A stretch of DNA of 48,497 bases from Thermodesulfobacteriota bacterium. GTDB taxonomy: Bacteria > Desulfobacterota > Thermodesulfobacteria > Thermodesulfobacteriales > Thermodesulfobacteriaceae. The notes under the pieces are model-generated. The model worked only from the letters and a program-made list of their open reading frames with translations. It did no database searches and was not told the origin of the DNA. Each line of letters begins with the position of its first letter. Positions within the stretch are counted from its first letter, which is position 1. The position numbers were made by a program, and so were the translations under genes. The stretch spans positions 1 through 48,497 of the forward strand of contig JAUQQL010000008.1 of assembly GCA_030578315.1 (NCBI GenBank), read 5' to 3'. This document shows, piece by piece, positions 1-6,724 of this stretch.

Positions 1-1959
1 TTTTTACCCAAAGAATTCGCCTTGATAAAAAGAAGGGGGGTTAACTTAAAAAATTTTTTAAAAAAAAATACTGCTTTGAACTTAAAAAAAATAAAAGAGT
101 ATGAAAGTAGAAGATGGATTTTGTTAAAAACTGAATATCCTAAATTAAAACTCCCTACGGAAAAATTTTTGATTCTTAAATCTAAAAATTTTGACGATTT
201 TCCTTTAAAGAACTACTTTAAGGTTAATTCTCAGATTCCTGAAAAACTTTTACTAAAAGAGGTTTCTAAAAAAGAAATAGAAAAATGGATTGAGAAGGGA
301 ATTTTAGAAAGAGTAGAAATTCCTAAATTTAGAAAGGTTGCGATTTCTTACTTAAGCGAATTTGATTATGTGTTAACTAATAAGCAAAGAGAAGTTTTTA
401 ACGGGATTAAAAGTTTAGTGGAAAAAAAAGAATTTAATCCTATTTTACTTTTTGGAGTTACAGGAAGCGGGAAGTCTTTGATTTATCTGGAACTTATTAA
501 AGAAATTCTTAAACAGAAAAAAAAAGTTTTAATTCTTGTTCCTGAAATTGCACTTACGACTTATATGGAAATGTTTATTTTACAGTATTTTAAAGAAAAT
601 CTGGCCCTACTTCACAGTGGTTTGTCTCCTGGAGAAAGACTAAGTGAATGGATGAGAATTTTAAAGGGTGAGGTTAAAATTGTTTTAGGTACTCGTTCAG
701 CTGTATTTGCACCTATAGAAAATTTAGGACTTATTATTGTAGATGAAGAACATGATCCCTCTTATAAAGAAACGTATTTAGCTTGCAAGTATCACGCTAG
801 AGATGTTGCACTTTTAAGGGCTAAGTTAGAAAAAATCCCCATAATTTTAGGTTCTGCAACACCTAGCATAAGAAGTTTTTATTTAGCTACTAAGGGAAGG
901 TATCATCTTTTTACGCTTAAAGAAAGGCCTTTTACAAGTTTACCTAAGGTAAAATTAATAGATAATAAAGTTTTTAAAATAATTTCTCCTGAACTGAAAA
1001 AAGAAATAGAGGAAACTTTAAAGAAAGGCAAGTCAGTTTTTCTTTATTTAAATCGTAGAGGATATGCTCCTTTAGTATTGTGTGAAGAATGTTATTATGT
1101 GTGGAGCTGTCCTAATTGTGGTATTCCTCTTACTTATCATAAGGACGAAGACGCTTTACTTTGTCACTACTGTGGGTTTAATCTTAAATTCTTAAGAACT
1201 TGTCCTAACTGTGGAGGAATAGAGGTAAAGTTTAAAAGAATCGGCACTGAAAAAGTTGAGGAGGAAATAAAAAAAATTTTTAAAGAAGTAGAAACTATTC
1301 GGATAGACCGAGATACTATAAATTCAGAAAAAAGACTTTCTGAAGTTTTAAAAAAAATTTATAACCAAAAGCCTAAAATAATTATAGGAACTCAGGCTGG
1401 AATTCATGGACATAACTTTCCTCAGGTTAATTTGGTGGGAATTTTAAGAGCCGAGGAGGGATTGTTTTTACCTCACTATAAAGCTGCAGAAAGAACCTTT
1501 CAGCTTTTGGTTCAAGCTTGTGGAAGAGCAGGAAGGTTTGAAGAAGAAGGAAAGGTTATTTTCCAAACTTTTTTAAAAAATCATTATGTTTTAAGGTATG
1601 CTTTATCTCATGATTACGAAAGTTTTTTTAAAGAGGAACTTCAATTGAGAATGAAATTTAAATTTCCTCCCTTAGTCAGAATGGCTTTGATAAGGTTAGA
1701 AGGTTTAAAAGAAGAAACTTTGATAAAAAAAATAAATGAAATAAAGAGTTTTTTAGAAAGATTTGAAAATTTAGAAATTTTAGGTCCTTCTCCAGCACCT
1801 TTTAGAAGACTAAGAGGTTTTTACCGTTGGCACTTGATCTTGAAATCTAAAAGTTATACTTTTATTCGAAAGGCAATTAAAGAGTTAATTCAAAGATTTA
1901 AAATTTCAACTTCTGGATTTAAGTTAGTAATAGATGTAGAGCCAGAAGAAATTTTATAA
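1..1959 (+). CDS. priA: Primosomal protein N' (PriA helicase), 5'-truncated by window edge
   Basis: Superfamily-2 DNA helicase that reloads the replisome at stalled forks. The frame is open to base 1 (seven codons before the first possible TTG start at 22) and family members are around 730 residues, so the gene begins upstream; about 650 residues are visible. Counting from the TTG at 22: Walker A GVTGSGKS at 145-152, Walker B DEEHD at 241-245, and eight zinc-binding cysteines at 354, 357, 363, 366, 381, 384, 394 and 397, the typical PriA double zinc module inside the helicase C-terminal half. A HGHNFPQV segment and the QACGRAGR motif VI follow. It ends 72 bases before the ClpX-like gene. Identification is firm; only the 5' end is unknown. 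Confidence 0.96.
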   Translation, partial: FLPKEFALIKRRGVNLKNFLKKNTALNLKKIKEYESRRWILLKTEYPKLKLPTEKFLILKSKNFDDFPLKNYFKVNSQIPEKLLLKEVSKKEIEKWIEKGILERVEIPKFRKVAISYLSEFDYVLTNKQREVFNGIKSLVEKKEFNPILLFGVTGSGKSLIYLELIKEILKQKKKVLILVPEIALTTYMEMFILQYFKENLALLHSGLSPGERLSEWMRILKGEVKIVLGTRSAVFAPIENLGLIIVDEEHDPSYKETYLACKYHARDVALLRAKLEKIPIILGSATPSIRSFYLATKGRYHLFTLKERPFTSLPKVKLIDNKVFKIISPELKKEIEETLKKGKSVFLYLNRRGYAPLVLCEECYYVWSCPNCGIPLTYHKDEDALLCHYCGFNLKFLRTCPNCGGIEVKFKRIGTEKVEEEIKKIFKEVETIRIDRDTINSEKRLSEVLKKIYNQKPKIIIGTQAGIHGHNFPQVNLVGILRAEEGLFLPHYKAAERTFQLLVQACGRAGRFEEEGKVIFQTFLKNHYVLRYALSHDYESFFKEELQLRMKFKFPPLVRMALIRLEGLKEETLIKKINEIKSFLERFENLEILGPSPAPFRRLRGFYRWHLILKSKSYTFIRKAIKELIQRFKISTSGFKLVIDVEPEEIL

Positions 1960-2031: not shown

Positions 2032-3657
2032 ATGTTTAAAAATCCTAAACTCAAAATAGATAGAATTTCTTATCAAAAGTCTTATAAACCTTTTTATGAG
2101 TTTGATTTAACTCCTGAACAATTAGAAAATTATTTAGACGAATATATCGTAGGACAGAAAGAAGCTAAGGCTATAATAGCTACCAAAATTTGTACCCATT
2201 TTCATAAAGTAAAAAATTTTCTTTTAAAAGATGGAAGAGATGATACTGTAGGGTTTATAAAAAATAACATTTTTATTATTGGTCCTACTGGAGTTGGGAA
2301 GACTTATATGATAAAGCTTATTGCTAAAAAAATAGGGATTCCTTTTGTAAAGGGAGATGCTACGAAATTTAGTGAGACAGGGTATGTGGGGGGAGATGTG
2401 GAAGATTTGATTAGAGACCTTTATTGGGAGGCTGATGGAGATTTAGAAAAAGCTCGTTTTGGTATTGTTTATCTAGATGAAATAGATAAAATTGCTTCTT
2501 CAGGAGATATAATAGGACCTGATGTTTCAAGAACAGGAGTTCAAAGAGCTCTTTTAAAACCTTTGGAAGAAACTGATGTAGAAATTAAAGTTCCTCCAGA
2601 TGCTTTAAATTTCTTAGAACTTCAAGATCCTCAAGGAAGAAGTAGAAGAAGAAAAATTGTTCTTAATACTAAGTACATAATTTTTGTAGTAAGTGGAGCT
2701 TTTCATGGTTTAGAAGAGATTATTAAAAAAAGATTAAATAAACAGAAATTAGGATTCTTATCAGAAATTGAGGGAAGAAAGGATGTTAAATTTAATTATA
2801 TGAAGTTAGTCACTCCTGAAGACTTAGTAACTTATGGATTTGAAAGAGAGTTTGTAGGAAGATTCCCGGTAATAGCGGTTTTTGAAACTTTAACTGAGGA
2901 AGAGCTTTTTAAAATTTTGGCCAATCCTAACAGTTCCATTATGATAAATAAAAAAAGAGACTTTAAAGTTTACAATATAGATATAGCTTTTACTAACGAG
3001 GCTTTAAAAGAAATTGCTAAAATGGCTTGGGAAGAAGGAACTGGCGCTAGAGCTTTAGCAAGAATTCTGGAAAAAGTTCTTATACCTTTTGAGAGAACTT
3101 TACCTTCTATTTCTATTAACTACTTGGGGGTTACTTCTGAGTTAGTAAAAGATCCTTATCAAGTTTTAAGTTCTATGATTAACAATCCAGAAAATCCAAA
3201 ATGGAAAGAGTTTTACTATAAAGCTTTAAAAGAAGAAGAGGAAAGGGTTAAAGAGTATATTTTTAATCGTCAGAGTATTTTTTTTAGGGATACATCTTTT
3301 GAAATTACTCCTCATAGATTGAAGTTAATTTTTGACGTTTATAAAAAAGAAGACATAGAGCTTTCTCAAGCTATTGAGGAGGTAGTGTCTCTGTGGAAAC
3401 AAATAAAAACTTACGAACAAAGTTTTGAAAGACGCAATCAAATTAAAATTCTTTTTACTGAAGATGCTATAGATAGTATTTTAGAGGAGGTTATAAGAAC
3501 AGATTTTGGAGTTTTTGCTTACTGTGAAAAGATTATGTCTAGGTTGGAATATACCTTAAACATTATTAAAGAATCTACAGGAAAAAATTTATTCTTTATT
3601 CCAGCTTGGGCTTTAAAAGAACCTGAAAAGTTTTTAAATCAAGTTTTAGCTGTTTAA
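2032..3657 (+). CDS. ClpX-like AAA+ unfoldase lacking the zinc-binding N-domain, with C-terminal extension
   Basis: AAA+ ATPase of the ClpX/HslU clade. Visible motifs: Walker A GPTGVGKT at 84-91, ClpX-type pore loop GYVG at 117-120, Walker B IVYLDEID at 145-152, an arginine-finger region EFVGRFPV near 273-280, and sensor II GTGARAL near 337-343. The tripeptide LGF at 240-242 falls where ClpX carries its IGF loop that docks ClpP, so it may pair with a ClpP-type peptidase (inference). Unlike ClpX there is no N-terminal Cys4 zinc domain, and after sensor II there are about 190 extra residues (protein 541 aa against about 420), rich in charged helices and not recognised. It is the first gene of the long operon, 18 bases before the receiver gene. 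It is probably a ClpX paralogue rather than the housekeeping ClpX. Confidence 0.8.
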   Translation: MFKNPKLKIDRISYQKSYKPFYEFDLTPEQLENYLDEYIVGQKEAKAIIATKICTHFHKVKNFLLKDGRDDTVGFIKNNIFIIGPTGVGKTYMIKLIAKKIGIPFVKGDATKFSETGYVGGDVEDLIRDLYWEADGDLEKARFGIVYLDEIDKIASSGDIIGPDVSRTGVQRALLKPLEETDVEIKVPPDALNFLELQDPQGRSRRRKIVLNTKYIIFVVSGAFHGLEEIIKKRLNKQKLGFLSEIEGRKDVKFNYMKLVTPEDLVTYGFEREFVGRFPVIAVFETLTEEELFKILANPNSSIMINKKRDFKVYNIDIAFTNEALKEIAKMAWEEGTGARALARILEKVLIPFERTLPSISINYLGVTSELVKDPYQVLSSMINNPENPKWKEFYYKALKEEEERVKEYIFNRQSIFFRDTSFEITPHRLKLIFDVYKKEDIELSQAIEEVVSLWKQIKTYEQSFERRNQIKILFTEDAIDSILEEVIRTDFGVFAYCEKIMSRLEYTLNIIKESTGKNLFFIPAWALKEPEKFLNQVLAV

Positions 3658-3675: not shown

Positions 3676-4038
3676 ATGATATTTTTAGCTCTTTCAGAAG
3701 ATATTTTTTTTAAATTGAAAGAACTTTTAGAAAAAAATAAATTAAAGTTTCAAAAGATTGATACAGGAGACAAACTTTTAACTTTAGCTAAAAAAGAAAG
3801 ACCAGAGCTTATTATTTTAGAAAAAGACTTGCCTCTTTTGGATGGTTTTGCAGTAACTCTACTTTTAAAGTCTGACATAAAAACTCAAGATATTCCGATT
3901 ATAGCTATTTGTAAGTGTAATTATAAAGAAGAAGAAATAAAGGCTAAGGAATGTGGTTCGGATGAAATATTACGATATCCTTTTAAAGACCAGGAAATTT
4001 TAGAAAAAATTTGGAAATATGTGAAAAAGAAAAAATGA
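3676..4038 (+). CDS. Stand-alone response-regulator receiver domain, degenerate (Asp to Glu)
   Basis: A 120-residue single receiver (CheY-like) fold without output domain. Alignment to the usual D-x-x-L-P-x-x-D-G pattern is clear at E49-K-D-L-P-L-L-D-G, but the phospho-acceptor Asp is Glu49. The conserved Lys of the K-P-F motif is Tyr101 (YPF), and the acidic pair near the N-terminus is only partly kept (SED at 7-9). Glu at the acceptor often mimics phosphorylation, so the protein may be permanently active or a phosphorylation-independent adaptor (inference). D51 could conceivably substitute. Its stop codon overlaps the ahbC start as ATGA, implying translational coupling. No histidine kinase is nearby. 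Confidence 0.82.
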   Translation: MIFLALSEDIFFKLKELLEKNKLKFQKIDTGDKLLTLAKKERPELIILEKDLPLLDGFAVTLLLKSDIKTQDIPIIAICKCNYKEEEIKAKECGSDEILRYPFKDQEILEKIWKYVKKKK

Positions 4039-5183
4039 TAAGTATTTCGAGGCTTTACTGTGGAGCTGTAGAATTTGCAGAACATTTAAGGTATAGTAAA
4101 AGTGCTCATCAAAGACCTGTGGTTGTGTGGAATGTAACTAAAGCGTGTAATTTAAAATGTATTCACTGCTACGCTTCAGCAGATCAAAGTCCTTCTTCTT
4201 ACGAATTAACTACAGAAGAAGGTTTTACTTTATTAGAGGATTTGGCTAAGTTTGGAGTGCCTGTAATACTTTTTTCAGGAGGAGAACCTTTAGTAAGACC
4301 AGATATTATAAATTTGATTAAGAAAGCTGTTGAACTAAATTTAAGAGTTGTAGTTTCCACTAATGGGACCTTAATAGATAAAAATATGGCTAAAGAGTTT
4401 AAAAAGCTTGGAGTGAGTTATGTAGGTATTAGCTTAGATGGAGTAGGTGAGATACACGACAAGTTTAGAGGAGTAAAAGGAGCTTTTGAGAAGGTTGTGG
4501 ATGCTGTTGAGAATTGCTTAAAAGAAAATTTGAAAGTAGGATTAAGGTTTACTATTAATAAGTTTAATGTAAAGGAAATTCCTAAGATTTTTAAGTTAGT
4601 AAGGGAAATGAAAATTCCCAGACTTTGTTTTTATCATCTTGTTTATACTGGAAGAGGAGCTAATTTAGTAAAACAGGATTTAACTCTCGAAGAGAAAAGA
4701 AGTTGGATAGATTTTATTATAGAAAATACTAAAAAACTTCACGAAGAGGGTATTAAAACTGAAGTTTTAACAGTAGATAATCATGCAGATGGTCCTTATC
4801 TTTATCTGAAAATGGAAAGAGAAAATAATCCAAGGGCTAAGGAAGTTTATGAACTTTTGAAGCTTAATGGAGGAAATAAATCTGGAGTAGGAATTGGATG
4901 TATATCGTGGGATGGAGAAGTTTTTGCAGACCAATTTTGGAGACATTATTCTTTTGGAAATATTAGAAAAAGGCCTTTTAGTGAGATATGGATGGATGTA
5001 ACTGATCCTCTTATGTTTAAGTTAAAAGACAAAAAAAAGTATGTAAAAGGAAGATGTAGTAAGTGTAAGTTTTTAGAACTTTGTGGAGGTAATCTTAGAG
5101 TGAGAGCTGAAGCTGTTTTTGGTGACCCGTGGGCTTCTGATCCTGCTTGTTACTTAACTGACGAAGAAATAGGTTTAGTTTAA
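4035..5183 (+). CDS. ahbC: Radical SAM/SPASM protein, 12,18-didecarboxysiroheme deacetylase (AhbC-type)
   Basis: Radical SAM enzyme of the siroheme-dependent heme pathway; AhbC removes the acetate side chains of 12,18-didecarboxysiroheme to give Fe-coproporphyrin III. The start is set at the ATG overlapping the receiver stop (ATGA), because family members begin with M-I-x-I-S-x-L-Y-C-G; an earlier start 24 bases upstream is possible. In the 382-residue product the 4Fe-4S motif CNLKCIHC has Cys38, Cys42 and Cys45, followed by the SAM-binding FSGGEP. A C-terminal SPASM cysteine set (GIGCISWDG, a CSKCKFLELCGG cluster and a late DPACY) is present. NirJ of heme d1 synthesis is similar, but the conserved N-terminus and the ahbAB fusion elsewhere in the window favour AhbC. 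Confidence 0.88.
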   Translation: MISISRLYCGAVEFAEHLRYSKSAHQRPVVVWNVTKACNLKCIHCYASADQSPSSYELTTEEGFTLLEDLAKFGVPVILFSGGEPLVRPDIINLIKKAVELNLRVVVSTNGTLIDKNMAKEFKKLGVSYVGISLDGVGEIHDKFRGVKGAFEKVVDAVENCLKENLKVGLRFTINKFNVKEIPKIFKLVREMKIPRLCFYHLVYTGRGANLVKQDLTLEEKRSWIDFIIENTKKLHEEGIKTEVLTVDNHADGPYLYLKMERENNPRAKEVYELLKLNGGNKSGVGIGCISWDGEVFADQFWRHYSFGNIRKRPFSEIWMDVTDPLMFKLKDKKKYVKGRCSKCKFLELCGGNLRVRAEAVFGDPWASDPACYLTDEEIGLV

Positions 5184-5209
5184 AAAAATTAAAAAGTGAG
5201 GTGAGGAAA

Positions 5210-6124
5210 ATGAAAATTATTTTAGTAGGACAGGGGCCATTTGGAGAAAAAGTTTGTGAAAGACTTATAAATAAAGGAAAAAAAATAGTAGGAATTTTTA
5301 CTCCTCCTGGTGGAAGAGGAGATCCTTTAGAGAAGGTAGCAATTCAATATAATATTCGGTGTTACAGAGTTCCTAACATGAAAGAAGCCTGGATAGAAGA
5401 GGAATTTAAAAAGTTGGCCCCTGATCTTGTAATTTTAGCCTTTGTTACAGACATTATCCCAGAAAGACTTCTTTCTATTCCTACTATAGGAACTATATGT
5501 TATCACCCCTCTATTCTTCCCAAACACAGAGGAGCTAGTGCTATAAATTGGGCTTTAATTATGGGAGAAGAAAAAACGGGGCTTACTATCTTTTGGGTAG
5601 AAAAGGGCATAGATACTGGTCCTATTCTTCTTCAAAAAGAGGTAGAAATTTTACCTACAGATACTGCGGGAAGTCTTTATTTTAATAAGTTATTTCCTAT
5701 GGGAATTGATGCTATAGAAGAAGCAGTAGAACTTATAAAGTCTGGTAAAGCCCCTCGTATTCCTCAAGATAATTCTTTAGCAACTTATGAACCTCCCTGC
5801 GATGATAAAGTAGCAGGTATAAAATTTGATAAATCCATAGATGAAATTTATAACTTGATTAGAGGGTGTGACCCTCAACCAGGAGCTTATGCTTTGTATA
5901 AAGGAAATAAAATAAGATTCTACGGAGCTCAAAAAATTACTTTATCTCATTCCGAACCCCCAGGCAAAATTACTGCAATAGATGAAAGTGGATTAACTAT
6001 AGCGGTAAAGGGAGGTTTTATTAAGGCTTCTAAATTTAGAATAGACAAAGGAGAAAAAATAGGAGCTTTACAACTGAAAGAAACTTTAGGATTGAAAGAA
6101 GGAGATCAATTGGAGGGATGTTAG
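5210..6124 (+). CDS. Formyltransferase-fold protein, 10-formyl-THF hydrolase/Fmt-like
   Basis: Two-domain protein of the methionyl-tRNA formyltransferase family: N-terminal formyl-THF-binding Rossmann-like domain and a C-terminal OB-like domain. The ATG at 5210 is preferred over GTG 5201 because the GAGGTGAGG ribosome site lies just before it. The catalytic segment C97-Y-H99-P-S-x-L-P-K-H-R-G-A-S and D135 (GIDTG) match the family. The position that is Asn in true Fmt (N-x-H) is Cys97, and the HRGASAINW context resembles the hydrolase domain of formyl-THF dehydrogenase (ALDH1L1), which has Ile there. It may therefore handle 10-formyl-THF with a substrate other than Met-tRNA. It sits 9 bases before a stand-alone IMP cyclohydrolase, suggesting a purine/one-carbon role. 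The substrate is not provable here. Confidence 0.75.
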   Translation: MKIILVGQGPFGEKVCERLINKGKKIVGIFTPPGGRGDPLEKVAIQYNIRCYRVPNMKEAWIEEEFKKLAPDLVILAFVTDIIPERLLSIPTIGTICYHPSILPKHRGASAINWALIMGEEKTGLTIFWVEKGIDTGPILLQKEVEILPTDTAGSLYFNKLFPMGIDAIEEAVELIKSGKAPRIPQDNSLATYEPPCDDKVAGIKFDKSIDEIYNLIRGCDPQPGAYALYKGNKIRFYGAQKITLSHSEPPGKITAIDESGLTIAVKGGFIKASKFRIDKGEKIGALQLKETLGLKEGDQLEGC

Positions 6125-6133
6125 GAGGAAACA

Positions 6134-6724
6134 ATGTTAAAAATAGAAAGAGCTTTAATTAGTGTGACTAACAAAACCGGTATAGTTGAATTGGCAAAAG
6201 AGCTTCAAGAGTTAAATATTGAGATTATATCTACTGGAGGAACTGCCAAAATTTTAAAAGAAGGAGGAGTTAAAGTAATTGATATTTCTGAAGTTACTGG
6301 ATTTCCTGAAATACTCGGAGGTAGAGTTAAAACTCTTCATCCTTTGGTTCACGGAGGAATTCTTTTTAAAAGGGACGATAAAGAACACTTGGAAACTATT
6401 AAAAGTTATCGTATAAAACCTATAGACTTGGTAGTGGTTAATCTTTATGCCTTTGATAAAGCAGTTTCTTTAGGAGCTAACCTTGAAACGGCTATTGAAA
6501 ATATTGATATAGGAGGTCCTACTCTTCTTAGAGCTGCAGCTAAAAACTTTAAGTATGTAACTGTAGTAACTGACCCTAGAGATTATCCTCTTATTTTGGA
6601 GGAAATTAGAAAAAACGGAAATACTTCTTTAAAAACTCGTTTTGAGCTTGCTAAAAAAGTTTTTAAACTTACGAGTGAATACGATAAAATGATTTTTGAA
6701 TACTTTTCAACTTTATCTTTATAA
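6134..6724 (+). CDS. purH: IMP cyclohydrolase (PurH N-terminal domain only)
   Basis: Closes the ring of FAICAR to give IMP, the last step of de novo purine synthesis. Only the MGS-like cyclohydrolase domain is present: 196 residues instead of about 510-520 for bifunctional PurH. Motifs [18 protein letters not shown] and [12 protein letters not shown] are intact, and the protein ends naturally after the domain (YDKMIFEYF), so this is a genuine split form, not a truncation. The AICAR transformylase must be encoded elsewhere or replaced. The upstream neighbour is a formyl-THF-using protein. A strong AGGAGG site lies at 6123-6128. Stand-alone IMP cyclohydrolases are known in some sulfate-reducing bacteria. 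Confidence 0.9.

Follow-up and report, generated by a model that had tools for sequence, protein, structure and literature searches.

A ClpX-like unfoldase with a predicted second small domain, encoded beside tetrapyrrole synthesis genes in Thermodesulfobacteriota

Mitochondrial ClpX activates ALA synthase, and does so by a limited unfolding that gates cofactor binding (PMC7077987). Among bacteria, the nearest ClpX paralogue found in the literature, among the matches listed, is ClpX3 of Myxococcus xanthus (MXAN_2743), an extra paralogue that has neither the N-terminal domain nor the RKH motif and whose mutant grows poorly at 36 C (PMC11423568). In plants, GluTR is a topic of the Clp-protease literature. 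ClpX together with ahbC or ahbD was not found in the literature searched for those names.

Here we describe a ClpX-like gene from a Thermodesulfobacteriota genome (assembly GCA_030578315.1), encoded in the first 48,497 nucleotides of contig JAUQQL010000008.1; this whole stretch is called the window. The features to which we refer are as follows.

22..1959, + strand: priA, the upstream gene
2032..3657, + strand: ClpX-like AAA+ unfoldase of 541 aa, recognised from the open reading frame, the ClpX model match, the AF2 model and structural alignment
2110..2895, + strand: AAA+ large domain, residues 27-288, with Walker A/B, GYVG pore loop and Arg finger
2749..2757, + strand: LGF, a tripeptide of docking type (residues 240-242) that aligns with the docking loop of ClpX
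2896..3162, + strand: first copy of the AAA+ small domain, residues 289-377, with the sensor-2 GAR at 338-340
3163..3360, + strand: predicted helical linker, about residues 378-443, least conserved and mostly absent in the 12 more distant members of alignment A3
3361..3654, + strand: predicted second, degenerate small domain, about residues 444-541, GAR absent
3676..4038, + strand: pseudo-receiver of 120 aa with the Response_reg fold and no phospho-acceptor Asp, a candidate adaptor
4011..5183, + strand: ahbC, 12,18-didecarboxysiroheme deacetylase (best model TIGR04546, 608 bits against a cut-off of 650; model match from 4038)

The ClpX-like gene begins with ATG, preceded at a short distance by AAGGGAG; promoter and terminator scans gave results near shuffled means. 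A first-pass annotation, made from the letters alone, had recognised an unfoldase with pore loop and Walker motifs, and alignment to ClpX bears this out, all motifs being intact: Walker A GPTGVGKT, Walker B YLDEID, GYVG, VGRFP in the Arg-finger region and the sensor-2 GAR. The ClpX model matches at E 2.7e-93 and the top NCBIfam models are ClpX. The scores miss the curated ClpX equivalog cut-offs (313.1 of 359 bits for NF003745, 292 of 370.75 bits for TIGR00382), and the protein is ClpX-type in a wider sense, its AAA+ core being that of ClpX and carrying Walker A/B, GYVG, Arg finger and sensor 2. The AF2 model (27 rows, mean pLDDT 84) matches ClpX in structure at Z 31.3 over 303 residues and 1.9 A, and the alignment with 4i4l_B spans residues 23-393 of the model and 63-412 of ClpX.

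Like ClpX, the motor combines AAA+ large and small domains, Walker motifs, GYVG, the sensor-2 GAR and an IGF-type loop. Unlike ClpX, it falls below both curated cut-offs and into a separate clade, has neither zinc domain nor GGRKH, carries a longer segment in the place of GGRKH, reads SRTGVQR for SGEGVQQ and adds a predicted second small domain. As first annotated, the zinc domain is absent: PF06689 did not match the protein, its one match in the genome lying inside the canonical clpX. The broader claim that the substrate- and adaptor-binding N-domain is gone holds for this zinc domain; a majority of the members outside the window's order have another conserved N-terminal motif, of the type P-x-QKELEKE-LSEYLSKKYG. 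With HslU the motor shares the lack of a zinc domain and an SRxGVQR-type motif, and HslU chains align at Z 24-26; in contrast to HslU, it has no I-domain and does have the LGF loop. HslU identity was rejected at 173.6 bits against a cut-off of 362.45, the protein showing no I-domain-sized insert like that of the genome's own HslU, which is encoded on contig C47. The motor also resembles M. xanthus ClpX3, as described, in being an additional ClpX paralogue with neither the N-terminal domain nor the RKH motif (PMC11423568). A Cys54-x-His56 lies at 2191-2199; Cys54 is invariant across the subfamily (53/53 members), the canonical ClpX of this genome having Tyr at that position. As to GGRKH, one near relative (L080) has the letters R-K-H by themselves in its loop, not the whole motif.

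The C-terminal extension had been put at about 190 residues and taken for a new region. ClpX structures align up to model residue 393, which shortens it to about 150-165, and its end is not new: by profile comparison, AF2 topology and structural alignment it is a degenerate second copy of the protein's own AAA+ small domain. In both alignments, profile 452-537 matches profile 300-378 with a probability of 97-98% and local scores of 54.6 and 70.9, against a maximum of 18.8 in 100 column permutations per alignment; sections of the large domain scored 8.5-16.3 until they overlapped the small domain. The structure prediction proposed for this region was run as AF2, and in it the order of strands and helices is identical in the two copies (E317-320, H322-335, H339-359, E364-367, H369-373, H375-384 in the first; E472-475, H477-490, H494-516, E520-523, H525-529, H531-540 in the second). 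Folded alone, the extension reaches pLDDT 93.6, and its best structural alignments are with the small domains of HslU and ClpX (Z 8.9, 80 residues, 2.3 A); the 50 structural matches listed are ClpX, HslU or Skd3. Foldseek returned no match at E <= 0.001 for the extension model (best 0.072), though those listed were all ClpX or HslU; the small-domain reading therefore rests on the profiles, the topology and the structural alignment. GAR occurs in the second copy in no row of the subfamily alignment, and thus this copy should not sense ATP. Conservation is lowest in the linker that joins the copies (mean pairwise identity 0.23 in alignment A1), which contains a candidate partial third copy (hhalign 79-88%, above permuted controls). 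For the C-terminal region alone, GatB_Yqey was the sole weak Pfam match (18.4 bits against a cut-off of 27) and was taken as chance.

Receiver proteins such as CpdR and RssB are ClpXP adaptors, and a receiver-fold gene directly follows the motor here. Its product matches Response_reg at 45.4 bits and resembles CpdR and RssB in standing beside a ClpX-type motor. It differs from them in that the phospho-acceptor Asp is missing in 29/29 aligned members (26 have Glu there, 2 Arg and 1 Ser), and it does not qualify as a phosphorylatable response regulator. By analogy, the pseudo-receiver may be an adaptor of the motor. Outside the order, too, the gene after the motor is a receiver-fold gene in three lineages (L054, L056, L070), with hemB next or close. 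Several pseudo-receivers contain a C-K-C motif.

Contrary to the first annotation, the ClpX-like gene may not head its operon, since priA, on the same strand, stops at 1959 and leaves a gap of 72 bp. Downstream of ahbC, the window also holds purH, aroD, aroE and aroA, and the genome has an ahbD scoring 506 bits, over its cut-off. At 5201-6724, a formyltransferase-like gene of 307 aa, whose best model is methionyl-tRNA formyltransferase at a score under the cut-off, adjoins a PurH of 196 aa. This PurH covers only positions 1-195 of the 510 in its model, and its gene lacks the transformylase part.

Subfamily matches at E <= 1e-90 are present in 96 of 198 sampled genomes of the window's phylum. 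We counted ahbC at 607 bits or more (98 genomes), adding two genomes in which it is cut by contig ends (G168, G145) and excluding weaker radical SAM matches. Motor and ahbC occur together in 68 genomes, the motor only in 28, ahbC only in 32 and neither in 70 (Fisher p = 2.6e-8, with relatedness ignored). Where both are present, ahbC lies directly downstream on the same strand in 47 genomes, at a distance of 30-857 bp, far off on the same contig in 2 and on other contigs in 19. In at least 34 genomes hemB follows the motor within 7 kb, and ahbC or hemB is found downstream in at least 57/96 genomes and in 29/41 families having the gene. With 28/96 motor genomes having no strong ahbC and 32/100 ahbC genomes having no motor, neither gene needs the other.

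For gene order we examined 29 loci of the window's order, from 33 order genomes with a full-length match, and 42 loci from outside it, hand-picked for diversity out of 89 genomes; these counts leave out L002 (the window copy), L024 and the canonical ClpX and HslU loci. All 29 order loci read motor, pseudo-receiver, ahb radical SAM gene (ahbC in the window). At the other 42, what comes next on the motor's strand is an ahb radical SAM gene (23 loci), DnaJ (5), hemB (4), the receiver-fold gene (3), a PpiD-like gene (2), FKBP (1) or another gene (3); one locus has none. A heme gene is among the next four same-strand genes in 30/42 loci, or 31 when G160 is included, with hemB 422 bp downstream. Longer runs continue from motor to ahbC, hemB, another radical SAM gene of ahb type, taken to be ahbD, and ahbA/B. 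DnaJ-type genes come next at L046, L048, L050, L053 and L061 and PpiD/SurA-like genes at L047 and L059; at L044 an FKBP-type gene follows the motor and an ahb gene is next but one. Of the heme, purine and shikimate context first described, then, the heme genes recur widely, but the purine and shikimate neighbours were found only in loci of the window's order.

Of 20 genomes taken from the 32 with ahbC and no motor, 11 have, counted by eye, a same-strand gene of 493-590 aa directly before ahbC. Four of these genes were tested and all encode methylase-HemD fusions; the two tested genes that precede such a fusion encode porphobilinogen deaminases. The ahbC run is thus otherwise devoted to tetrapyrrole synthesis. 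AhbC tails were considered as client tags and rejected: no extra tail was seen in motor-bearing genomes when 53 with the motor were compared with 20 without.

This conserved context suggests that the motor assists or polices the production of heme in its hosts, and we give an about even chance to the reading that it is a specialised ClpX-type unfoldase serving mainly tetrapyrrole (heme) synthesis enzymes. Linkage to tetrapyrrole genes is no proof of function, and several observations speak against a role in heme synthesis only, among them the 19/68 genomes with ahbC on another contig, the 2 with ahbC far away, the chaperone-type gene next to the motor in 8/42 loci and the lack of an added tail on AhbC. 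The same DnaJ, PpiD-like and FKBP neighbours would suit a general quality-control paralogue of ClpX with broad clients, for which the heme genes would be an old operon neighbourhood of no direct functional meaning. Such a paralogue would also fit the motors lacking a strong ahbC, the presence of priA and of purine and shikimate genes in the window's run, and the more distant relatives: among 19 Verrucomicrobiota/Poribacteria-type loci (L087-L105), none of the 18 readable ones shows a heme-gene tag near the motor in that reference set, and the heme link is therefore probably not ancestral to the whole subfamily. It accounts less well for the recurrence of ahbC or hemB near the motor in 29/41 families, in runs that are otherwise tetrapyrrole runs, and we hold it to be possible but rather unlikely. 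The dedicated client that had been proposed is plausible by the heme context, the purine and shikimate genes having been seen as neighbours in one order only.

On the reading preferred here, the motor can probably use ClpP. The LGF sits where the docking loop of ClpX aligns, as first annotated, docking itself being a prediction. Two doubts had been attached to it: that the tripeptide might be buried, and that close relatives might lack it. The second is answered by the alignment, in which 52/53 distinct members retain [ILMV]GF. On the first, residues 242-245 and 247-252 are modelled at pLDDT <50 and thus look flexible. One could also imagine a remodelling chaperone independent of ClpP, in which the doubled small domain alters the ring or covers the peptidase face. 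In its favour are the place of the added domain after the small domain, the absent canonical zinc domain and GGRKH loop, and the limited unfolding by which mitochondrial ClpX works on ALA synthase (PMC7077987). Retention of the tripeptide in 52/53 members would be hard to explain if no peptidase were bound, and we consider this explanation improbable.

The genome has its canonical counterparts elsewhere, the search for which had been recommended at the outset. On contig C46 lies a clpX whose 420-aa product has the zinc domain, GGRKH and IGF, adjoining the only strong clpP match; three further clpP matches are all weak. The ClpX-like motor is 44% identical to this ClpX over residues 23-373. Full-length orthologues of the motor (E < 1e-140) occur in 35/41 genomes of the relatives set, and distant relatives with a similar C-terminus, among the matches listed, in Verrucomicrobiota and allies, Poribacteria and Desantisbacteria contigs, a lower bound on the spread over phyla. 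All 53 distinct aligned members have GYVG, GAR and C54, and none has GGRKH. When 60 AAA+ cores were placed in a maximum-likelihood tree, the 38 rows of the subfamily fell into a single clade (98/90), separate from the 20 rows of canonical ClpX (100/100); within the subfamily clade, 24 rows of the window's phylum group with the Desantisbacteria row (100/99) and the 13 other rows together (99/87), while HslU and L024 are on long branches and of unsure placement. Selection on the gene is purifying: compared with a 90%-identical orthologue, the whole gene gives dN/dS 0.069, its large domain 0.04 and its C-terminal copy 0.082, values that together with the ClpX match argue that the gene is not a chance reading frame. 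ClpX may be its top-scoring family, but the separate canonical clpX beside clpP, the orthologues, the clade and the dN/dS refute an ordinary, mis-assembled or decaying clpX, which we regard as extremely improbable. By sequence comparison, the motor is a deep paralogue of ClpX and a distinct conserved subfamily, for which the NCBIfam matches listed include no dedicated model. L024 (4162-5838) is a more distant ClpX-like paralogue of 558 aa, 38% identical over 26-385, with a similar-looking C-terminus, in a genome that also has the main one. Anti-phage defence was rejected, PADLOC giving no match for motor or pseudo-receiver at 1e-5.

Acting on heme synthesis enzymes, the motor would form a hexamer and choose its clients by an altered pore-entrance loop, the second small domain and, in most relatives, the N-terminal motif; within the window's order, the pseudo-receiver would help in the choice as an adaptor. 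ATP-driven threading would pass the client to ClpP, or the client might be only partly unfolded for a cofactor to enter, as with mitochondrial ClpX on ALA synthase. The likeness to that system is of a ClpX-type motor tied to heme synthesis, and the abstract describing it mentions no second small domain (PMC7077987). If the parallel holds, the clients here must be others, the pathway running via ahbC and siroheme.

Going further, and with considerable doubt, we can envisage a tetrapyrrole-dedicated bacterial unfoldase independent in origin of the mitochondrial link between ClpX and ALA synthase, with a doubled small domain and steered by a pseudo-receiver in some lineages, which remodels or degrades enzymes of the pathway and so sets how much heme is made. 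If this is true, bacteria, like mitochondria, would have a ClpX-type motor linked to heme synthesis. A large phylum would be concerned whose members are on the siroheme-dependent route, and post-translational control of that route would become testable. The motor itself would represent a new unfoldase design, with a second small domain that has no sensor 2.
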